In this document: in pieces, positions 2,870-37,203 of the stretch
How the letters are laid out: the number at the start of each line of letters is the position of its first letter
Position numbering within the stretch: the stretch's first letter is position 1
Virus record (IMG/VR): IMGVR_UViG_3300009168_000077
Location: 1-37,203 of that record
Strand: one strand, 5' to 3'
DNA length: 37,203 nucleotides
From: a virus
Program-made: the position numbers and the translations under genes
The notes under the pieces: model-generated
What the model was told of the DNA's origin: nothing
Database searches by the model: none
The model's input: the letters and a program-made list of their open reading frames with translations, nothing else

Positions 2870-3046
2870 ATGTCCCAACACACAGACTATCCTGTGCAAG
2901 CGTCCTGTGCCTTTATTCGCCATGCCTTGAATTATCCTTCTTTGTGTAATGAACGTACAGGACCAGACTCCATGCCTAAAAAAATTGACACAACCAAGCG
3001 GTTGAATCCTAACTCCGGTTTCCTGGATGATAACCCCAGGACTTAA
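2870..3046 (+). CDS. Possible small ORF, 58 aa, unknown
   Basis: An open frame from ATG 2870 to TAA 3046 (MSQHTDYPVQ... ending FLDDNPRT), downstream of the Cys-cluster gene on the same strand and within reach of its promoter. The ATG overlaps the 3' arm of the alternative hairpin and has no good Shine-Dalgarno. An internal ATG at 2972 has AGGA nine bases upstream and would give a 24-aa peptide (MPKKIDTTKRLNPNSGFL...). The composition is hydrophilic and basic in the second half. It could be non-coding. I recognise no family. Confidence 0.3.
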   Translation: MSQHTDYPVQASCAFIRHALNYPSLCNERTGPDSMPKKIDTTKRLNPNSGFLDDNPRT

Positions 3047-3177
3047 ATTTCTGTAAAACCAAAAAATGTGCCTAAATTAGTATCGTTTTGGCCTATGGTT
3101 TTTTAGGAAGGCCTGCCTAATCGTAGTTGCCACACAAAGCATGTCCAGGCTATTGGACGTGTCTAATTAATACGTTT
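3047..3177. other. Non-coding interval between convergent transcripts
   Basis: No gene seen. It is AT-rich with several short imperfect inverted repeats: AAAACCA (3054-3060) with TGGTTTT (3097-3103), GGCCT with AGGCC around 3091-3114, and GTCCA with TGGAC around 3142-3157. Rightward transcripts from 2524 and leftward transcripts from 3356 meet here, so a bidirectional stop is plausible. No element has the full stem-plus-T-run form. Confidence 0.35.
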
Positions 3178-3351
3178 TTAACTACGTGGTTTTGAGGCTG
3201 GATAAGTACCATCTATGGCGGCTTTTTTCAAACAGGCGAGTTTCTTCCAGATAGGAGATCCGTCTTTGCACCTGTCCATGATCGTATCAATCAAGTCGAT
3301 GATGATATCCCGACACACCTGATCCGTACTGTTTTTGACTGGTTTGCTCAT
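3178..3351 (-). CDS. Small basic protein, 57 aa, unknown; possibly leaderless
   Basis: The frame is open from ATG 3360, but the promoter -10 at 3368-3363 places transcription start near 3356. The usable start is then ATG 3351 (MSKPVKNSTDQ...), nearly at the 5' end of the transcript and without a Shine-Dalgarno. The product is helical-looking (DIIIDLIDTIMDRCKDG, IWKKLACLKKAAID) with a basic C terminus. No family is recognised. It has its own promoter, separate from the sigma-like gene upstream. It might instead be a small RNA gene that happens to contain an open frame. Confidence 0.45.
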   Translation of the reverse strand: MSKPVKNSTDQVCRDIIIDLIDTIMDRCKDGSPIWKKLACLKKAAIDGTYPASKPRS

Positions 3352-3408: not shown

Positions 3409-3921
3409 TTAAATTTCTTCTTCTCCGTATATGGCCAGTAGTGCATCCTTCCGGAATCTCTTAAGCACACGGTGATTGCTGGATCCAAATGGCGTACCTG
3501 ATTCCAGGCGCTCAAGGTACACCTGGTTAGGCTCATGTATAGCAGCTATGCGCTCACGCTCTAAATTGGACATTACTTCAGACTCTACTGACTGGTACAT
3601 GCTAAACACACCTGTGCAGCCATTAAGGATGCCTGGATACTTTACAAGTGCCTCACGGCGGACTTTATAGGTTTTGGTTGCATTTGATAAAACTGACTGA
3701 CAATACCGGAAGAAGACAACCTTCCAGCTAATACCTTTCGAAATGGCCTCTGTGACTGTTTTAAAGGTATTAGGTTTGCTCCACAATATTAAAACGTCTC
3801 CAACTAAGTCTGGCAGCTTTGAATCGTCCTGAGTGTTTTTAAAGTGGCTGTACAATACCTTACCAGCAAGCCTACAACAATCATGGTAGTTGTCAACTAT
3901 TAGTTGTGTTATTGTATTCAT
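3409..3921 (-). CDS. Sigma-70 region 2-like protein, 170 aa
   Basis: Starts at ATG 3921 behind AGGACAGGATC and a promoter 20 bases upstream. An open frame extends to 4113, but it would cover the promoter and an Ala-Lys simple repeat and has no Shine-Dalgarno. Residues about 10-50 (YHDCCRLAGKVLYSH, then LPDLVGDVLILWSK) resemble region 2.1-2.2 of ECF-type sigma factors, where 'DLVQE.F..LW' binds core polymerase. Residues 63-95 (ISWKVVFFRYCQSVLSNATK, basic after it) resemble region 2.3-2.4. No region 4 follows; a region-4-like protein is encoded separately at 2369. The assignment is inferred from pattern only. The C terminus (LERERIAAIHEPNQVYLERL) is helical and unassigned. Confidence 0.45.
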   Translation of the reverse strand: MNTITQLIVDNYHDCCRLAGKVLYSHFKNTQDDSKLPDLVGDVLILWSKPNTFKTVTEAISKGISWKVVFFRYCQSVLSNATKTYKVRREALVKYPGILNGCTGVFSMYQSVESEVMSNLERERIAAIHEPNQVYLERLESGTPFGSSNHRVLKRFRKDALLAIYGEEEI

Positions 3922-3941
3922 GATCCTGTCCTGTTGGTTTG

Positions 3942-3971: not shown

Positions 3972-4000
3972 AGGCTTTGAAGTCCTGGACAAATAAAGAT

Positions 4001-4048
4001 GCTTTTGCTTTGGCTTTTGCTTTGGCTTTTGCTTTGGCTTTTGCTTTT
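4001..4048. repeat. Hexanucleotide repeat GCTTTK, eight units
   Basis: Eight tandem hexamers alternate GCTTTT and GCTTTG (a 12-bp unit about 3.5 times, then one more GCTTTT). One strand is purine-rich (AAAAGC/CAAAGC). It lies between divergent promoters and could be coding only in an unlikely extension of the gene at 3921, as alternating Lys-Ala. It may be a protein-binding iteron set or slippage-prone spacer DNA. Confidence 0.75.
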
Positions 4049-4057
4049 CCTTCTTTT

Positions 4058-4130
4058 ACCCACCACACAGGTGGGTATTCAGGCACGAGCGAAGCGAGTG
4101 CCGTTAGTATCACACCAGTATATGGTGTGA
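4058..4130. other. Cluster of three hairpins between divergent promoters
   Basis: Three inverted repeats sit side by side. First, ACCCACC/GGTGGGT (4058-4064 with 4070-4076), 5-base loop. Second, GGCAC/GTGCC (4082-4086 with 4098-4102), enclosing GCGAAGC (4089-4095), a sequence known to form an exceptionally stable DNA mini-hairpin. Third, TCACACC/GGTGTGA (4110-4116 with 4124-4130), 7-base loop. None has a T-run. They lie next to the hexamer repeat and AT-rich DNA, which suits an origin of replication or a regulatory site. No initiator gene was recognised. Confidence 0.65.
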
Positions 4131-4297
4131 GTTTACGTTAGAAGCATAGCTATCAAAAGCATCTTAATAGTATATGTCGTTTTTTTATGCGTACTATTTA
4201 TGCCGACTAAAAAAAGTTATAAATTGTTTTACATTTTGGTTGCACACGTAGTATATTATGCCGGAAGCGGTGATTTATTGGTTGAGAGGAATCTTGA
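4131..4297. other. AT-rich leader and upstream region of the rightward block
   Basis: No gene seen. The interval is strongly AT-rich, with runs of T and A (4180-4215) ahead of the promoter at 4228-4257 and a short leader to the ATG at 4298. Confidence 0.5.
4228..4257 (+). promoter_or_regulatory. Promoter of the rightward early block
   Basis: TATATT (4252-4257), preceded by G, with TTTACA (4228-4233) at 18 bases (or TTACAT at 17). Predicted start near 4264, and the leader carries GAGAGG before ATG 4298. It shares GTAGTATATT with the leftward promoter at 3391-3363. Confidence 0.65.
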
Positions 4298-4831
4298 ATG
4301 AAGGATCTTTCTATGGCTCTTAAGAAGGCTTGTGGTCCAACAGCAGTACGGTTACGTGTATTCCATGATCTTGGTAGCTTCTACTATCCAACCAGTAAGT
4401 CCAGAGGCAAGAGAGAGTACGTATATCGTAAGGCTCTACTTGTCTGGTGGTATTATGACGCCTTCGGAGAAATCAAAGACGACTACGGTGTTATCACTCT
4501 TTCATTTGCACCAGGATCATCTTGCCGTAAGATACTTGAAGCCATAGGTTTTGATAACTTTCCAAAAGGTATTAAGCATGTTGGCAATGTTGTTAAGCTA
4601 TTTCAAATCATACAAGAAGATTTGGATAGTAAGCCTTGTTACATGACTCTTGAAGTTGAGCGTAAGAAAGGTTACATCGTAGTTAATAGTGCCAACCGTG
4701 TTGTTCCGTCAACGGTTGTACCTGACAAGTATTGCATGAGCTTGCGAGGACAAGCTGCCATGGAATTATATTCCGAGTACCGTAAGAAATGTATTGATGC
4801 AAACGACTCTGACTTATCAGAGACAGCATGA
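4298..4831 (+). CDS. Unknown early protein, 177 aa
   Basis: First gene of the rightward block, with GAGAGG about ten bases before ATG 4298. The product is basic and aromatic in its first third (LGSFYYPTSKSRGKREYVYRK; LLVWWYYDAFGE), followed by mixed alpha/beta sequence (KHVGNVVKLFQIIQEDL; YMTLEVERKKGYIVVNSANR). No catalytic or nucleotide-binding motif, zinc cluster or membrane segment is seen. First position in an early block is often taken by DNA-binding or host-takeover proteins, but I cannot assign one. The next gene follows 22 bases after the stop. Confidence 0.75.
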   Translation: MKDLSMALKKACGPTAVRLRVFHDLGSFYYPTSKSRGKREYVYRKALLVWWYYDAFGEIKDDYGVITLSFAPGSSCRKILEAIGFDNFPKGIKHVGNVVKLFQIIQEDLDSKPCYMTLEVERKKGYIVVNSANRVVPSTVVPDKYCMSLRGQAAMELYSEYRKKCIDANDSDLSETA

Positions 4832-4853: not shown

Positions 4854-5582
4854 ATGTCCAGGCGTATGATTGACGTTGTGAGCGATGCGTTTCAGGCTAT
4901 TGGCGGGGCTCCTTCTAAGAAGATAGTAGATCGGAAGGAAAAAGAAATTGACAGTGGTACTGACACTTTTGAATATGGTGATATTATCATGAGGGCTGCC
5001 TCACCAGAAGATGAAGAGTCACTTAGTAAATTTTTAGATTCTATACAAGACGTTGATTTGTGTCAGTCTTGTCGGAAGACACCAAAAGCACACACCGTTG
5101 GTAACAGTCTTTTCTGCACCGAGTGTGATACACTAAGACATAATTTTGAAGACATAGTGCAGCACGCTCCTCATGCTGATGTTGAAAGTTTAGCTACTAT
5201 TAAGAATATTCTTTCCATACCGGAAAAGCACAAGAGGATGGAAAAACTCAGAGCTTCAAAGTATGAGACTGGTAAACGTAACATTGTTTTGAAGTTATAC
5301 GGAAAAAGATGTTTCATGTGTGGGTACACAAGAGATGAGATCCACATAGTACCTATTAAATTCATGACACGGTATAACATAGAAGTGCACCATATTATAT
5401 ATCCATATATTTACAATCTTGGGAAGGAAAGAATAGAAGACTATGCTATTCTTTGTTCAGAGTGTCACGATGATTGTACAGCTATAAGAAACAAAACAAT
5501 ATCTGACGGTGATATAGATAAAAGAGCACTACACCTTCAACAACTTTCAGAAGCAAGGGGCACAAAAAATGAAGAAGACTAA
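4854..5582 (+). CDS. HNH-like protein with two zinc modules, 242 aa
   Basis: ATG 4854 is chosen for its AAAGGAGG site; an open frame runs further upstream into the previous gene. A first Cys module lies at about 75-100 (CQSCRK ... FCTECD). The C-terminal half has CFMCG, EVHHIIYP and LCSECHDD, the arrangement of a zinc-stabilised HNH nuclease fold (paired Cys residues around His-His). The N-terminal 60 residues are charged and unassigned. Early location between regulators means it may be a nicking/cleaving enzyme for replication or host DNA, or a homing-type enzyme kept with phage DNA. It overlaps the next gene by 14 bases. Confidence 0.7.
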   Translation: MSRRMIDVVSDAFQAIGGAPSKKIVDRKEKEIDSGTDTFEYGDIIMRAASPEDEESLSKFLDSIQDVDLCQSCRKTPKAHTVGNSLFCTECDTLRHNFEDIVQHAPHADVESLATIKNILSIPEKHKRMEKLRASKYETGKRNIVLKLYGKRCFMCGYTRDEIHIVPIKFMTRYNIEVHHIIYPYIYNLGKERIEDYAILCSECHDDCTAIRNKTISDGDIDKRALHLQQLSEARGTKNEED

Positions 5583-5766
5583 ACGAATACCATACAAACG
5601 TCCGGAAGACAGGGTGTCAAAAAATCTCGTAGTACGTTTAAAGGAAAAAGAATTAGACGATTTGCGTGAGGCTGCCACACGCAGCAATCTCACGATGTCA
5701 GAATATATCCGTGAGCACATAGCATTATCAAAACTAACAAACAAACTGTCAGGACTGGAAACATAA
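5569..5766 (+). CDS. Ribbon-helix-helix DNA-binding protein, 65 aa
   Basis: Basic N terminus (MKKTKRIPYKRPEDR), then NLVVRLKEKELDDLREAATR and SNLTMSEYIREHI: a beta strand followed by two helices, the pattern of Arc/CopG-type or MobC-like ribbon-helix-helix proteins that bind DNA as dimers. The ATG lies inside the end of the HNH gene. Immediately after its stop are two tandem 21-bp repeats, a natural operator for such a protein, upstream of the promoter for the antirepressor genes. It is therefore a good candidate for the repressor or autoregulator of this block (inference from family and position). Confidence 0.75.
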   Translation: MKKTKRIPYKRPEDRVSKNLVVRLKEKELDDLREAATRSNLTMSEYIREHIALSKLTNKLSGLET

Positions 5767-5808
5767 CCACTTCCGTTTTTGACAAGTCCACTTTCGTTTT
5801 TGACACAA
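5767..5808. repeat. Two tandem 21-bp repeats, probable operator
   Basis: Copies at 5767-5787 and 5788-5808 share CCACTT(C/T)CGTTTTTGACA. The period of 21 bp is two helical turns, so a protein would bind both on the same face. They follow directly on the ribbon-helix-helix gene and lie about 20 bases before the next -35. Each contains TTGACA but has no matching -10. Confidence 0.75.
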
Positions 5809-5826
5809 AATAGTTTGCGATTTGGG

Positions 5827-5855
5827 TTGACTTTCTGGCTGCACTGAGGTATATT
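5827..5855 (+). promoter_or_regulatory. Promoter for the antirepressor segment
   Basis: TTGACT (5827-5832), a 17-base spacer and TATATT (5850-5855), preceded by G. Start is near 5862, followed by CAGGAGGAAGT and ATG 5901. It lies directly downstream of the tandem 21-bp repeats, so it is probably regulated. Confidence 0.75.
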
Positions 5856-6192: not shown

Positions 6193-6984
6193 ATGAGCAA
6201 CGAAATTATCACGAGGACATTTGGAGAGCATCAGGTACGCATAGCTGTTGATGGAGATCAAACGTGGTGGGTGGCAAAAGATGTGTGTGACGCGCTTGAT
6301 TTAGGTAACTCGCGTATGACAGTTGAGCGCATAGATTATGATGAAAAGGGTGTAAAAATTATTGACACCCTTGGTGGGCCTCAAGAGATGCAATGTGTTA
6401 CAGAGCCAGGGCTATATTCCTTGATTCTTACGAGCAACAAACCTGAAGCACACGCCTTCAAACGGTGGGTAACTCATGAGGTATTACCTACCATACGTAG
6501 GACTGGCACTTATACTGCACCAAAAGACTACGTTAGTGCTCTTCGTGCCTTGGCTGACACAACTGAGCGTTGCCAACAACTTGAGGAAGATGCCGAGCGT
6601 AATAATCCTCTTGCAAAGTTGTATAGAGATCTTGTTATGACTGACGGATTGTATACAATATCAGAGGCCGCAAAAGTACTTTACAATCACAGTCCTACTG
6701 GTCGTAATAGATTGAAAGCATTGTTGCGCGACAACAAATATATCATGGACTCAGACGAGCCTTATCAACGCTATGTTGAGCGAGATCTTTTCCGGATGAA
6801 GGAATTTATATTCAAGGATAAAAATGGTGTTGAAAGAAATGTTGCAAAAACTTTTCTTACTGCAAAAGGTATTGATCATATTCGCGCATTGGTGATTGAT
6901 GAGACAGCTCCTGCAGTCACCGTTGGTACAATCAAGCTGGATGATTCAATAGTAATTGATATTGACGAGCTTCTTAAGGACTAA
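6193..6984 (+). CDS. Phage antirepressor with BRO-N and KilAC-like domains, 263 aa
   Basis: ATG 6193 follows GAGGACAGGA. Residues about 8-105 form a BRO-N domain (TWWVAKDVCDALDLGN; TEPGLYSLILTSNKPEA; FKRWVTHEVLPTIRRTG). Residues about 150-240 match the KilAC type (GLYTISEAAKVLYNH; TGRNRLKALLRDNKYIM; AKTFLTAKGIDHIRAL). These proteins counteract phage repressors or bind DNA themselves, and are common in temperate phages. Here no classic repressor or integrase is found; the ribbon-helix-helix protein at 5569 is the nearest candidate partner. The length is usual for the family. Confidence 0.9.
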   Translation: MSNEIITRTFGEHQVRIAVDGDQTWWVAKDVCDALDLGNSRMTVERIDYDEKGVKIIDTLGGPQEMQCVTEPGLYSLILTSNKPEAHAFKRWVTHEVLPTIRRTGTYTAPKDYVSALRALADTTERCQQLEEDAERNNPLAKLYRDLVMTDGLYTISEAAKVLYNHSPTGRNRLKALLRDNKYIMDSDEPYQRYVERDLFRMKEFIFKDKNGVERNVAKTFLTAKGIDHIRALVIDETAPAVTVGTIKLDDSIVIDIDELLKD

Positions 6985-7053: not shown

Positions 7054-7065
7054 AAGGACAGGATC

Positions 7066-7326
7066 ATGATAAAGTTGACGCAGGAGATGATTGATTATCT
7101 GGGGCAAGATTTGGGTAACCGTCTGTATTATGATCCATCAACAGACAGTATAGTCAGGGGATCAACTTTTCACGGTGATTATGAAGCTATGCTGTTATCA
7201 CCGGACGATGTTGCACAGGCGGATGGCGATCTGGAAGTACTTGTAGGTGTTTTACTGTGTCGATATGATCGAATTTTTAATCCTGATGACGAGGAAGGAG
7301 AAGGTTGTACTTATGAAGAAGCCTGA
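7066..7326 (+). CDS. Small acidic protein, 86 aa, unknown
   Basis: ATG 7066 follows the shared start module AAAGGACAGGATC. The product is acidic, especially at the C terminus (FNPDDEEGEGCTYEEA), with mixed alpha/beta sequence (MIKLTQEMIDYLGQDL; LEVLVGVLLCRYDRI). No membrane segment or known motif. Acidic small phage proteins sometimes mimic DNA or bind host enzymes, but this is not shown here. Overlaps the next gene by 14 bases. Confidence 0.65.
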   Translation: MIKLTQEMIDYLGQDLGNRLYYDPSTDSIVRGSTFHGDYEAMLLSPDDVAQADGDLEVLVGVLLCRYDRIFNPDDEEGEGCTYEEA

Positions 7327-13101: not shown

Positions 13102-14043
13102 TTATTTCAGACTCGGTATGAATGATACATCAGCTTTAAGGTATGCTCCTTGTGCCCCGGATCCCCACATTGTTGTCCCATTAGTGGTTGTGTATATTCT
13201 ACCATTATAATATGTACACCCACGTGTTGAATCCTCTCCTTCCCCATATACAGACTCACCTAATTTAGTATATGGGGATGTGGAAGGATCGTACTCCTTT
13301 ACCTGCTCATCTAAAAGTCCCATTGTTATTACTGTTGAATCATCCGAATTCCAGCATACACCACGTGTGTTTCCAGTATCTCCACTAAATGATTGTAGTG
13401 CTATGGCATGAGTGGTAGTATTAATTGCAAATTTCCACACGCTTGCATAACCATTCTTGGCATTATCAGTATACACAATTGTGGCACTTCCGTCAGAGCA
13501 TACATGCTCAGGCCAATAATCTGCATATGAATATGAATTTACAACCCAATCACCTAAACCTCTACGATACAAAACATATAAGTTTCTATCTGCACTTGCT
13601 GCAACAATATGCCCTGACAAACATCTTAAGTCATACACATCTTCGAGATCTGGCATAAGGTATTCATCAACGTCTGTAAAATTTGTACCATCAAATGATT
13701 CCATAAAAATACGTCCGCCATTGCTTGCATAAACATATGTGCCATCTGTGTCTACAGAAATATCTCCGCTTGTAAACGTTGATCCTTTTGATGTAAGTGT
13801 AGATCCGTCCCATGTATATGCCAGCAGTCCTGATGATCCAAACACATATAAATAATTTGCGTCTTGACAACTATTATATGCTGTGTATCCTGTGGCGCTT
13901 CCTTTTAATGCAAGAGAAGAATCATATATATATAAACCAGAGGCTCTGTGTGCAAAAATTTCACCAGTTGTGGCATTTGCCCTTGGTTTATATGCTAATC
14001 CACTTCCGTCAGAAGCAGTGTATATTTTAGATATTACATTCAT
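13102..14043 (-). CDS. Beta-propeller-like tail protein, 313 aa
   Basis: Overlaps the collagen-like gene upstream as ATGA. Recurrent blocks of about 40-45 residues, each with small-residue strands and a closing aromatic strand ([68 protein letters not shown]), suggest a six- or seven-bladed propeller. Such folds serve as binding modules, so it may be a receptor-binding part of the tail. No signal peptide. It is AT-richer than the neighbouring tail genes, hinting at separate acquisition. Confidence 0.6.
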
Positions 14044-15281
14044 ATAGTATATCCAAGATTAAGAGTAAGCCTTTTTATCATTGTTGTTGCAGAGTCTATG
14101 TTAACACGCAACACATCTCCTGCTGCAAGCGATGGCCCCGTCCATCCTGATGTAGTGCCTGTACTTTTTATTTCACCGCTTATGTAAGGACCAGTACCCC
14201 CAATAGTCATACTGTCCGCGGAAGTAGGAGGATAATTTGTATATGTATCTTTCCAAAGTCCTATAGTGTATGCGCCGGTAGAGCTTCCTAATATTGTCCA
14301 ATTACTTATTGTCATAGCGGTTGGTATATGTACATCACATGCAATACCGGCATAAAGGTTGTCAGGAGATCCAGATAGTACTATATTCAAACATCCTGTA
14401 AATCCTCCACCTTGAAGACCTGTTATACCTGCAGATCCTGTTGATCCTTGGCTACCTGTCTGTCCTTGACTACCAGTAGGCCCAGGCAGTCCTGTTTCTC
14501 CATATGCCAAACCTGTGACTCCTATGGCACCAGTCTGTCCTTGACTTCCTGTAGGCCCAGGTAGCCCAGTCTCTCCTAATACGCCTTCCAATGGTGTATC
14601 AGTGAGATAGGATAGGACGTATACTCCTGTAGTTGAATTAGGCGTTGTCAGGACAACATCAAACTGCCACAGTCCTGTTGATCCTGGTATGACTATACTA
14701 TGATCATACTGAGGCGCCTTCCAGTCATCAAAAGCGAGCGTACCAAATGCCTGGTTACGCATATTCACGCCATTCCAGTACCAAGTCTCTGCACCAGTGT
14801 ATCCTGTAGTATACTCAGCTACATTTACTCCATACCACTGCAAAAGGTGAGGTGTCAGGACTGATCCGTTATTACCTGTGAATGAGAAACATCCTGTGAC
14901 AGCATTATTAAAATATATTGACGTATTTGAATAGTACAGACTCATAGGACTCTCGGCTACAGAGGTGGCGCCTGTATATCCTTGTGATCCTGTATACCCT
15001 TGTGCCCCGGTATATCCTTGAGCACCTGTAGGCCCAGGAAGTCCTGTTTCTCCAAAAGGTAGTCCAGTCAGTCCCTGGCCACCAGTCTGTCCTTGACTTC
15101 CAGTCTGTCCTTGACTGCCTGTAGGCCCTTGTAGTCCAGTATCCCCGCCACTTGGTACCTGCCAGGTACCATCATCTCTTAGATATAATCCTGTAGGAGA
15201 TGATGGCAGATCAGGCACAAATACTTCCGCGGTATGTATGGTGCCTACTCTACTGGTTTTATTCTTATGAGCGTATGCCAT
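14040..15281 (-). CDS. Collagen-like tail fibre protein, 413 aa
   Basis: Contains two collagen-like Gly-X-Y blocks with Thr or Gln favoured (about residues 45-105 and 237-297: [20 protein letters not shown]). The blocks separate a short N-terminal attachment part, a beta-rich middle domain with YYGVN-type strands and a C-terminal beta-sandwich-like domain. Collagen-like rods in phage tails are trimeric spacers between globular domains. The middle and end domains probably give binding specificity. It shares the Gly-X-Thr style with the proteins at 17056 and 25556, suggesting a common origin of the rods. Confidence 0.85.
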
Positions 15282-17055: not shown

Positions 17056-19977
17056 TTATGCCCTCGTGAATGTCAACATCACGCCAAGAAGGTATGCGTC
17101 AACAGCAAGAGTATCTGATGCATCGTCTGGTTTACGGTATACACGTATTTGTATAAGTTGACTTGCTGCAGGACTTCCTGCTAATGTTATTGCAGTAGAA
17201 GCTGGACTTATATAAATATCATTAGTTGTGCCACCTGTGTCCTCAGTTTCAACAGCTGCTCCGTGAGCCTGATCCAATGCATCATCGTTAGCATAAGCTC
17301 GACCTTGTATGGCCCACACTACACCAAAATTAGTATCCGTTGCAGGATGTGACCAATAGAATTGTGCCGTCACAGTACCGCCGTTATAGTCTGATGGTGC
17401 CACAAATGTGCAGTTGCAACGCTCTCGGGTTGCTGAATCAAAAGGAAGGTAGTACATGTTAACAGCATTTGTTGCATACTCTATTTTGGTGACTGCACCA
17501 CATCCGTCAGTATTTGAAGGCCACATACCAGAAGATGACAGGAAAATCTGTCCAGCCAGTGATGCACCAGTCAGTCCATTAGTGCCGGTGATACCCTGGA
17601 AACCAGTGGCGCCTTGCGCACCAGTACAACCTTGACTGCCCGTTGCTCCTTGTTGTCCTGTAGCTCCTTGAAGTCCAGTGATACCTTGGAGGCCTGTAGC
17701 TCCTTGTAAACCAGTGATACCGCCACTGCCGGTGATCCCACCTGATCCAGTGATACCATCTGATCCAGTGATACCCCCACTACCTGTGATCCCGTCAGTG
17801 CCGGTGATACCTCCACTACCAGTGATGCCATCATAACCAGTAGTACCTTGATCACCAGTAGCTCCCTGAAAACCTGTTGCACCTTGTAATCCAGTACAGC
17901 CCTGCTCACCAGTAGCTCCCTGGAAACCTGTTGCCCCTTGATCTCCTGTTATACCTTGAGCGCCTTGATCCCCAGTAGCACCTTGGAAACCAGTAGCCCC
18001 TTGAAAACCTGTTGCTCCTTGCTCCCCGGTTGCGCCTTGTAAACCAGTTATACCTTGTGCCCCTTGACTACCAGTTGCTCCTTGCTCTCCTGTACAACCT
18101 TGTAGTCCAGTAGCTCCTTGCTCACCAGTAGCCCCTTGAAGCCCAGTAATACCTTGAGCGCCTTGATCTCCAGTACATCCTTGCTCTCCTGTTGATCCCT
18201 GTTGTCCAGTAGCCCCTTGAAGCCCAGTAATACCTTGAGCGCCTTGATCTCCAGTACATCCTTGCTCACCTGTTGCCCCTTGAAAACCTGTAGCACCTTG
18301 ATCTCCAGTACATCCTTGCTCACCAGTTAAACCTTGAGCACCCTGCTCACCAGTAGCTCCTTGATCTCCAGTACAACCTTGCTCACCTGTAGCTCCTTGA
18401 AGTCCTGTGATACCACCTGTACCAGTAATACCACCACTACCAGTTATACCCCCACTACCAGTAATACCGCCTGTACCAGTAATACCTCCACTACCAGTAA
18501 TACCCCAACTACCAGTAATACCTTGATCACCTGTAGCTCCTTGCTCTCCTGTAGCTCCTTGGTCCCCAGTACAACCTTGCTCTCCTGTTGCTCCTTGATA
18601 TCCAGTAGCCCCCTGATCTCCTGTACAGCCCTGCTCTCCTGTTGCTCCTTGATCACCTGTTGCTCCTTGCTCACCTGTGGCCCCCTGTAAACCTGTCACT
18701 GCTTGAAGTCCAGTAATACCCTGTGCGCCTTGATCTCCAGTGGCCCCTTGCTCTCCAGTGGCCCCTTGCTCTCCAGTGGCCCCTTGCTCACCAGTAGCCC
18801 CCTGTAATCCTGTAACTGCTTGAAGTCCAGTTATACCTTGTGCACCCTGATCTCCTGTACAACCTTGCTCTCCAGTAGCTCCTTGTAACCCTGTTACTGC
18901 CTGGTATCCTGTTATCCCTTGAAGTCCTTCTGCACCAGTCAAACCGGCCACACCAAATATGCCTGTGGTGCCCTGTACTCCTGTATCGCCCTGTGCTCCT
19001 GTTGGCCCTTGAAGTCCTGTAGCACCAAGCCCAGTACAACCTTGTGATCCTGTATACCCTTGTGCCCCGGTATCCCCTTGTTTATTATCAGGACCTGTTA
19101 TCCCTTGAAAACCAGTGGCACCTTGCTCACCTGTTGCGCCTTGATATCCAGTATCTCCCGAATCACCTTCAGTACCTGTGCATCCTTGCTCACCAGTACA
19201 TCCTTGTTGGCCAGTAGCCCCTTGTTGTCCAGTAGCTCCTTGAAGTCCAGTAGCTCCTTGAAATCCAGTGTCTCCTGAATCACCTTCTAAACCTGTTGCT
19301 CCTTGTAATCCTGTTGCCCCTTGTTGTCCGGTACATCCTTGCTCGCCTGTAACACCTTGATACCCGGTGTCTCCTGAATCACCTTCTAAACCTGTTGGCC
19401 CTTGAAGCCCTGTTGAGCCAAGTCCAGTAGCACCTTGTGATCCAGTATAGCCTTGAGCACCTGTTGCACCATAGGTGCCAGTCATACCCTGTGGCCCCGT
19501 GATGCCTAAAAATGATCCACCTGCAGTACCTGTGTAGCCAGTGACATCCAATGCGTTGTATATCTCAACCACGATATCAGGCTCATATTGAGGTATGGTG
19601 ATTGCTGATCCGGCATTCACGAAGAAGGATATACCATAGTACTCTCCGTGTACAGGAGCTGTAGCCAATGCTCCTGGATCAAATCTCCATTTTATATTCC
19701 AGTTGTCTGATGCTAATTGACTGGCAGCATAAGACAATACAGTGGTGGTATATAGATCAGTGTTAACTTTACTCCAACGCGCTTCGGTGGTAGTAGGAGC
19801 AACCAGTTTATATATGGTAGCCGACAATGTAGGCGTAGTGGTGATGGTAGTTATCTTGATCTCGATATCACCTTCAATCGTTGATCCTTCATTCACCTTC
19901 ACCACTGGAGGTATGTCACCTTCATCCAGGCGTATACCATATACAGAGTACGATAGTGGTACGATTTGATAGGACAT
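17056..19977 (-). CDS. Giant collagen-like fibre protein, 973 aa
   Basis: Three parts: an N-terminal beta domain (1 to about 155) that resembles the 144-aa protein encoded at 20428; roughly 650 residues of Gly-X-Y repeats (about 155-805); and a globular C-terminal head ([20 protein letters not shown]...; [16 protein letters not shown]). The repeat is mostly Gly-X-Thr ([16 protein letters not shown]). It has about fourteen GCT-G triplets placing Cys in the rod and two Ile/Ser-Gly blocks ([13 protein letters not shown]). Thr in the Y position is usual for bacterial and phage collagens and can be glycosylated. Trimers would form rods near 190 nm by the 0.29 nm/residue collagen rise. ATG 19977 has AAGGAG upstream. 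Confidence 0.85.
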
Positions 19978-25555: not shown

Positions 25556-26065
25556 TTATGTCAATACTTCAACGTTACCGGTTGTAACAGTGATGACGCC
25601 TGTATCACCAGCGCAGTTGGTGTAGTACACGGAAGCGGACGCACCCGTGAAGCTGGCACCTTTGGCTCCTGTGATACCTTCAGTACCAGTGATACCCTGA
25701 GCTCCCTGATCTCCAGTAGCCCCTTGACTACCAGTAGCTCCCTGGTTACCGGTTGCACCTTGTAGTCCAGTGACTGACTGCATACCGGTGATACCTTGAG
25801 CACCTTGTTCTCCAGTTGCTCCCTGCTCACCTGTGGCTCCTTGACTACCAGTTGCACCTTGACTACCAGTAGCTCCCTGTGATCCAGTAGCACCCTGTTG
25901 TCCAGTTGCACCCTGTGATCCAGTAGCTCCACCTGCGGCCTGTAATCCAGTGAGTCCTTGTGCACCAGTTTGTCCCTGTGATCCAGTGATACCAGCCGGA
26001 TCCGTACCATCAACGACAGCCTTCAATAGAGGCTCACCGAACCAACGTTTGTTAAAGAATGGCAT
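25556..26065 (-). CDS. Short collagen-like protein in the connector region, 169 aa
   Basis: ATG 26065 has AAGGAG upstream. The N-terminal 25 residues (MPFFNKRWFGEPLLKAVVDG) are aromatic and could anchor to the head or neck. Then comes a Gly-X-Thr/Gln repeat of about 110 residues ([13 protein letters not shown]) and a short beta end (YYTNCAGDTGVITVTTGNVEV). Placed among connector and tail-terminator genes, it may form whisker- or collar-like fibres on the neck or head, not the tail tip. This is a position-based inference. Confidence 0.8.
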   Translation of the reverse strand: MPFFNKRWFGEPLLKAVVDGTDPAGITGSQGQTGAQGLTGLQAAGGATGSQGATGQQGATGSQGATGSQGATGSQGATGEQGATGEQGAQGITGMQSVTGLQGATGNQGATGSQGATGDQGAQGITGTEGITGAKGASFTGASASVYYTNCAGDTGVITVTTGNVEVLT

Positions 26066-32310: not shown

Positions 32311-32818
32311 GTGAGTGATATTCCTTTTTTGCTTCTTTATATGCTTTACTTGCTTCTTCTTTAGTATTATATATACCAAGATAAATTATTTTATAACTAT
32401 TACATATCTGAGAAACATATCTATCACCATATTTCATAACACCTACAAATCCTGTTTTATTTCTAACATCTAATTTTCTATTCTCACAATTTTGTTTATT
32501 AGTACAAATTCTTAAATTTGATTTCCTATTATCAAGAGTGTCGTGATTTATATGATCTACTACGTATAAATCAGGAGCATTAGAAACAACTCTATGCATC
32601 TTTTTAGTAGTCCTACTTTTATTTGTATGGCTTCCGACCCTACAAGAAGCATACATAGTTTTTTTCTTTTTTTTATCAATACAAACTGACCACGCCCTAT
32701 CTATAATCTTGCCCAAATCTTCCTTATCTATCTTTGCAAAATATCCTTGAGTTAGTGGTATGTCGTAATAATCCCCACGATCTATTGGATCCCAAACTCT
32801 CTTATTATATTGTCCCAT
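32291..32818 (-). CDS. HNH homing endonuclease with AP2-like domain, 175 aa
   Basis: ATG 32818 has GGAGGTG upstream. A core of MHRVV...VVDHINHDTLDNRKSNLRICTNKQN forms the HNH active site, and the C-terminal GFVGVMKYGDRYVSQICNSY with LGIYNTKEEASKAYKEAKKEY is an AP2-type DNA-binding unit. The basic N-terminal part (DKKKKKTMYASCRVGS) contacts DNA. This combination is typical of free-standing phage homing endonucleases that cut a phage lacking the gene and so spread it. It stands directly before terminase and overlaps its start, suggesting insertion there. Strong AT-richness sets it apart from the genes upstream. Confidence 0.88.
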   Translation of the reverse strand: MGQYNKRVWDPIDRGDYYDIPLTQGYFAKIDKEDLGKIIDRAWSVCIDKKKKKTMYASCRVGSHTNKSRTTKKMHRVVSNAPDLYVVDHINHDTLDNRKSNLRICTNKQNCENRKLDVRNKTGFVGVMKYGDRYVSQICNSYKIIYLGIYNTKEEASKAYKEAKKEYHSRVYSSF

Positions 32819-36414: not shown

Positions 36415-36661
36415 TTTGCATACCTTCAGCCATTTGGCGTGCATGTGCTGATTCTATAGGATGCTCGCTGAATAAGTGTGTAAGCATCCATTCATCATCA
36501 TTTACAGGAAGAATTTCTGGATGTTTTTGTTGTATATACTTAAGAGCGCTTTCATATGGACTCATATTATAATCTATATCAATCTGATTATGTAGTGACA
36601 ACAACCATTCATCCAGCGCCTTATCCATTGGTGTATGTATTGGGGTGATTGGATCTGTCAT
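36389..36661 (-). CDS. Unknown protein, 90 aa
   Basis: ATG 36661 follows AAAAGGTATAAA and overlaps the end of the Eco57I-type methyltransferase as ATGA. The first 18 coding bases equal those of the next gene. The product (MTDPITPIHTPMDKALDEWL..., SPYESALKYIQQKHPEILPV, HARQMAEGMQNDRSN) is acidic and helical, with no motif I recognise. Its end overlaps the next gene's start by 26 bases. It links the methyltransferase to the row of small SAM enzymes. Confidence 0.6.
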   Translation of the reverse strand: MTDPITPIHTPMDKALDEWLLSLHNQIDIDYNMSPYESALKYIQQKHPEILPVNDDEWMLTHLFSEHPIESAHARQMAEGMQNDRSNHQP

Positions 36662-37203
36662 TTTATACCTTTTATAGTCTTTTCAATATGCTCGATCTCT
36701 TTCTTGGTCAACCCGAAGTGGGCGTACAGTTCCTCGTCCGTCCATGCCTTCGAGTAGTCCTCAAGATCAGGCACCCATGAAAACTTACTCTTGTTCACAT
36801 CCTGAGATATAAGCCGTTGCATGAGGCAGAAGCGGGGGAACTTCAACCTCAGGTAAGCCTCGAAGTTGTCCGCCTCTTTCTTCGTGTTGAACGCAGCGAG
36901 TACCACGTAAGTTTCGGTGCAGCTATCCCCCTTAGAAATCTGAAAAGTTGTACCAAGAACCGGAGATGGCTGGCGATTTCCCTCCGCATCAATGATACCC
37001 TGACTCCGAGCCTTGGATGTGCAGACCTTGTACTTCCCCAAAATACCGTGATTGTCCCTCATGTCGTCTAAGGAGACACAATTGACTTTTCGACCAACCG
37101 AGTAGCATTTCACCGACCCCGGAGTACCATCCGCAACCCACCCCCTGAAATTCGTGGGGAGACCAAAAGGCTTGTTCGGAAAAGCCCGCTCAATACAAAA
37201 AGG
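36658..37203 (-). CDS. Eco57I-type methyltransferase, C-terminal part (continues from base 1)
   Basis: This is the end of the gene that starts at 819; bases 37081-37203 repeat bases 1-123. The 140 codons between 37080 and the stop give the probable target-recognition domain, with GTTFQISKGDSCTETYVVLA, FNTKKEADNFEAYLRLKFPR and a C-terminal helix-rich end (DEELYAHFGLTKKEIEHIEK). This layout (target-recognition domain followed by 'W.D..LY..F.LT..E...I') is characteristic of Eco57I-type enzymes. The DNA is GC-richer than the following genes until about 36690, near the end of the coding sequence. Confidence 0.88.
   Translation of the reverse strand, partial: PFCIERAFPNKPFGLPTNFRGWVADGTPGSVKCYSVGRKVNCVSLDDMRDNHGILGKYKVCTSKARSQGIIDAEGNRQPSPVLGTTFQISKGDSCTETYVVLAAFNTKKEADNFEAYLRLKFPRFCLMQRLISQDVNKSKFSWVPDLEDYSKAWTDEELYAHFGLTKKEIEHIEKTIKGIK
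37081..37203. repeat. Right copy of the 123-bp terminal direct repeat
   Basis: Identical to bases 1-123. Joining the ends leaves the methyltransferase frame unbroken, which argues that the genome is circular or permuted and that this copy is redundant. Confidence 0.97.

Follow-up and report, generated by a model that had tools for sequence, protein, structure and literature searches.

The 373-bp gap between the start codons of two diverging genes (3924 on the minus strand, 4298 on the plus strand) is the most structured non-coding site of this phage, with repeats, hairpins and AT-rich DNA more concentrated than in any other gap examined. The reading that we favor, and to which we give an even chance, is that the early genes of the phage are controlled from here in both directions; as such a divergent control region, the site would be ordinary. 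The alternative of a replication origin, put forward in an earlier note on this DNA, is not supported: nothing found here shows DNA copying starting at the site.

Structure of the gap

The window, meaning the whole stretch of DNA analyzed (37,203 nucleotides), is a whole IMG/VR virus record whose ends are a 123-base direct terminal repeat, so that the unique circle measures 37,080 bp. Portal, major head protein and large terminase genes, a tape-measure match and collagen-like tail fibers, all on the minus strand, identify a tailed phage. The plus-strand block is short, extending from 4298 to about 7.8-8.0 kb, and carries HNH-like, ribbon-helix-helix and Bro-N/KilAC antirepressor genes; the right flanking gene of the gap (4298-4831) opens this early operon. 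The record ends inside a gene, since a DNA methylase gene of the Eco57I type (419 aa; 36658-37080 joined to 1-837) spans the terminal repeat; the genome is therefore circular or permuted. Three collagen-like tail genes (17056-19977, 14040-15281 and 25556-26065) contain tandem repeats that are 18-bp based.

The gap and its flanking genes comprise the following features:

3409-3924, minus strand: left flanking gene, open reading frame of 171 aa, family unassigned; its ATG (3924-3922) lies behind the block AGGACAGGATC-ATG
3919-3932, minus strand: ribosome-binding block AGGACAGGATC plus ATG, with three exact copies in the genome
3942-3971, minus strand: candidate promoter ATAACA-18-TATATT, 9/12 consensus, weak alone
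3996-4007: left arm of the enclosing inverted repeat, AAGATGCTTTTG, perfect over 12 bp
4001-4048: eight GCTTTK units, 12-bp period, 3.9 copies
4057-4077: inverted repeat 1, TACCCACC-ACACA-GGTGGGTA, arms of 8 and loop of 5
4082-4102: inverted repeat 2, GGCAC-GA-GC-GAA-GC-GA-GTGCC, containing GCGAAGC
4110-4130: inverted repeat 3, TCACACCA-GTATA-TGGTGTGA, arms of 8 and loop of 5
4154-4165: right arm of the enclosing inverted repeat, CAAAAGCATCTT, perfect over 12 bp
4162-4241: AT-rich stretch, 76% AT
4184-4209: tandem pair of 13-mers, TTTATGCGTACTA / TTTATGCCGACTA, inside the AT-rich tract
4228-4257, plus strand: promoter match TTTACA-18-TATATT, 10/12 consensus, 40 bp before ATG 4298
4298-4831, plus strand: right flanking gene, open reading frame of 177 aa, family unassigned, with GAGAGGAA upstream and a strong coding signal

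Direct reading of the sequence bears out the earlier description of eight GCTTTK units, three inverted repeats, a GCGAAGC motif and an AT-rich stretch, and it is unlikely that the array and the hairpins came to be arranged in this way by chance. Folded as single-stranded DNA, 4001-4135 has a z score of -4.85, with none of 200 shuffles folding as well, and 4036-4170 ranks second of 2463 genome-wide for fold stability given base composition. No other such pair in the genome lies closer together than the two perfect hairpins (inverted repeats 1 and 3); any pair of perfect hairpins with 8-bp arms within 60 bp was found in 2 of 60 simulated genomes. In inverted repeat 2, a tandem G-A mismatch parts the outer from the inner stem; its exact sequence is unique in the window, and a search of IMG/VR did not find it. 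At the best shift, the three palindromes agree with one another at 9-10 of 21 bases, a level that random palindromes often reach, and thus they are not copies. The AT-rich stretch is the third most AT-rich 80-bp stretch genome-wide, and the two that exceed it (32360-32532) overlap terminase and HNH open frames. An intrinsic terminator at hairpin 3 was considered and rejected, its tail being weak and T-poor.

The GCTTTK array has a perfect 12-bp period and is the window's only tandem array with a unit of at most 12 bp and 100% alike copies. The complete identity of its 12-bp units is what a young slippage product would show, and we infer that the array is a microsatellite that slipped recently, and not a series of initiator sites. 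Arrays of at least five GCTTTK units are present in 32 other viral contigs, overlapping an open frame of at least 60 aa in 24 of these and none in the other 8, so that the hexamer recurs as a microsatellite both inside and outside open frames. The hairpin arrangement at this locus is not shared by the other viral contigs that carry the array; in L032, an unrelated contig of 230 kb, a hairpin lies a few bases after the array, without an enclosing repeat.

Start codons, promoters and control of the diverging genes

The gap is probably non-coding because the minus-strand gene starts at ATG 3924-3922 behind the recurrent block AGGACAGGATC-ATG, which is found exactly at 1379-1392, 3919-3932 and 7055-7068, and also at 334, 6182 and 8775. 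The 14-mer AGGACAGGATCATG has three exact copies in the genome and six with at most two mismatches, against 0.32 expected, mostly at gene starts, and this recurrence favors ATG 3924-3922 as the left start. The AGGACAGGATC-ATG block is useful for calling gene starts in this phage.

The frame of the left gene stays open upstream, from 4113 to 3409, with GTG 4113 or GTG 4086 as alternative starts, and reads the array as (Lys-Ala)8. We give little credence to a left gene that starts at either GTG, with the array encoding an N-terminal (Lys-Ala)8. Such a gene would be consistent with the open frame and with the K variation of the array, which is silent in the (KA)8 frame, and arrays encode KA or PK repeats in several other viruses. 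However, the phage's own ribosome-binding block precedes ATG 3924-3922, whereas the upstream GTGs lack it, and the coding score between this ATG and the array is near zero, a value in the lowest 8% of coding fragments and reached by 21% of non-coding ones, which weighs against coding but does not decide the question. The earlier statement that coding does not explain the array is thus made probable by the block at the ATG, although the upstream frame is open.

The description of a flanking gene (probably the left one) as sigma-like found no support for either gene in Pfam, PHROGs or NCBIfam: the left flanking gene has no Pfam or NCBIfam match and, for its longer frame, no PHROG match, and the right flanking gene has no family match in any of the three. 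The AlphaFold models predicted for the two flanking proteins from single sequences reach a pLDDT of 41, too low for them to be informative. A genuine sigma region-4 match is located in the gene at 1584-2369 (Pfam E 1.9e-7).

Outward promoters on both sides of the site had likewise been described. The plus-strand match TTTACA-18-TATATT agrees with the consensus at 10 of 12 positions, is convincingly placed, and resembles promoter-like sites at 2489 and 5827, all with GTATATT at -10. In contrast, the minus-strand site ATAACA-18-TATATT (3971-3942) is the weaker one at 9 of 12, and the four promoter-like sites of the region compare with 3.2 expected from shuffles. The GTATATT -10 element of the minus site is common to other sites. 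A promoter block, CAYGTAGTATATTRTG, was rejected, as it matches only the two sites that defined it.

Binding, transcription and their effect are here predicted from observed positions and sequences. Two outward sigma-70-type promoters, of which the right one matches well and the left one less well, would drive the diverging genes. The palindromes are putative sites where dimeric DNA-binding proteins of the phage or its host attach, or alternatively might form cruciforms when the two diverging transcriptions supercoil the DNA, and may tune the relative activity of the promoters. The GCTTTK slippage repeat would need no role of its own. Of the earlier proposal, the part that places a compact non-coding site of control between the diverging genes is supported, and the plus operon carries two DNA-binding candidates, at 5569-5766 (ribbon-helix-helix) and 6193-6984 (Bro-N/KilAC antirepressor). 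Against a control region, the palindromes are all different, no further full copy of palindrome 3 exists, the minus-strand promoter is weak with the promoter-like count at chance, and no relatives that would show conservation were found in the collections searched. Neither flanking gene has relatives in IMG/VR, INPHARED phages or GTDB genomes; at the DNA level the locus has none in phages or plasmids, and a TerL relative (L002, 54%) does not reach the locus. The gene at 4854-5582 has no relative in IMG/VR, and the gene at 1584-2369 none in IMG/VR or phages.

Divergent early control regions of temperate phages, such as the lambda-type operator/promoter regions, consist of a short non-coding gap with outward sigma-70-type promoters and palindromic sites, adjoined by genes for DNA-binding proteins. 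The region described here is similar with respect to its short gap, its outward promoter matches with palindromes between them, and the DNA-binding genes of the adjacent operon. In contrast to the lambda-type regions, no recognized repressor gene adjoins it, its palindromes are all different rather than repeated operators, and it has an additional hexamer microsatellite. The small ribbon-helix-helix protein of the early operon matches a NikA-like mobilization family above the Pfam cut-off (E 1.9e-6). A second control region lies at 5767-5855, where two direct repeats of 18 bp, CCACTTYCGTTTTTGACA, stand 21 bp apart and are followed by a promoter-like TTGACT-17-TATATT.

Replication

An origin at this site, which we consider unlikely, would have an unrecognized initiator bind the repeats and palindromes, while divergent transcription would help the AT-rich stretch to melt. 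The succession from repeats through palindromes to the AT-rich tract, set between diverging early genes, is consistent with this, as are the tandem 13-mers within the AT-rich tract and a local GC-skew minimum near 3.88 kb, and either flanking gene, having no assigned family, could encode the initiator. However, the cumulative GC skew, which the earlier note had suggested as a check on an origin here, turns where gene direction changes: its local minimum near 3.88 kb and its maximum at 8.05 kb lie near the two ends of the plus-strand gene block. In both directions most genes have a positive coding-strand GC skew; gene orientation thus explains the skew, and no replication signal is left. The DnaA box TTWTNCACA is absent between 3300 and 5000, with no similar site nearby, and is found once in the whole window.

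Iterons are copies of one site and are generally phased (PMC5043065). Lambda-type and iteron-plasmid origins resemble the present site in the order of repeats, palindromes and AT-rich tract near early transcription (PMC5043065), and the AT-rich unwinding region expected beside such an origin is present here (4162-4241, 76% AT). In contrast, those origins have several initiator-site copies of ~17-22 bp (PMC5043065), whereas the unit here is 6/12 bp with a 12-bp period that is not a helical phase, the palindromes are not copies, and no initiator gene is recognized.

In agreement with the earlier remark that no known replication initiator was recognized, none was found by Pfam, PHROGs or NCBIfam; likewise, no polymerase, helicase or primase was recognized (Pfam or PHROGs on most open frames, NCBIfam on selected ones). 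No replication protein is recognized although the 37-kb phage looks complete, and several methyltransferases and HNH endonucleases are present. This absence raises the question of where and how the phage starts copying. With the skew following gene direction, no DnaA boxes nearby, palindromes that are not copies and no initiator gene found, the tests remove the positive evidence that had been proposed for an origin; one with an unfamiliar initiator would still be compatible with the data. If the site were an origin, its initiator might be new, and one of the two flanking proteins a candidate for it.

The enclosing inverted repeat

A perfect 12-bp inverted repeat, AAGATGCTTTTG / CAAAAGCATCTT (3996-4007/4154-4165), encloses the array and the three hairpins. 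A spaced inverted repeat of at least 12 bp arose in 2 of 400 shuffles of the gap, and AATA stands directly outside both arms (3992-3995 and 4166-4169). These observations could reflect a fold-back (MITE-like) insertion between the promoters, i.e. an element of 170 bp (3996-4165) that ends in inverted repeats of 12 bp, is flanked by a 4-bp target duplication, AATA, and as a single strand folds with z scores of -6 to -8. We regard such an insertion as quite unlikely: the terminal repeat and AATA were observed post hoc, four AT bases match easily, and a 12-bp enclosing repeat is also present in 1 of the 32 other arrays (L029). Moreover, the phage contains no second copy of the arms, and no similar element was found in phage, plasmid or E. 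coli records.

The 12-bp repeat might instead be the closing stem of a structured RNA made from the minus strand, either a small RNA or a leader of the left gene, which seems to us improbable. The minus-strand RNA fold of 3996-4165 has a z score of -5.99, matched by none of 200 shuffles, but the plus strand folds even better (z about -8), the tandem array probably inflates the z scores of both strands, and the sequence upstream of 4165 yielded no minus-strand promoter of consensus type. The locus also gives a weak match to RAGATH-9 (3995-4177, minus strand, 20.5 bits), with which it shares AAGAAGGAAAAG; this score is well below the gathering score of 75.2 and the 142-158 bits of true members, and the match was not reported in the whole-genome search. 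Membership of RAGATH-9 was rejected on this score (E 0.26 and 0.13; local Rfam search, end to end) and on the lack of most conserved strings. The RAGATH-9 RNA (RF03146) of crAss-like phages is similar to the locus with respect to the closing stem, the three hairpins and the presence of AAGAAGGAAAAG after the third hairpin. Its members, however, lie among co-directional genes, several of them beside tmRNA, a genomic setting that differs from the divergent gap here. A structured RNA other than RAGATH-9 is possible. We give very little credence to the 170-bp element being an origin or a structured-RNA control element of a new kind, served by one of the two flanking genes, in a lineage without a recognized replication protein.

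Searching with a portion of the RAGATH-9 consensus uncovered RNAs of this family, at 142-158 bits, in eight phage records, of which six are named crAss-like. In these records (L035-L042) the RNAs are located near 3000-3180 (1601-1780 in L040), with hatchet ribozymes 1-2 kb upstream, tmRNA downstream in several and a sigma factor gene downstream in three.
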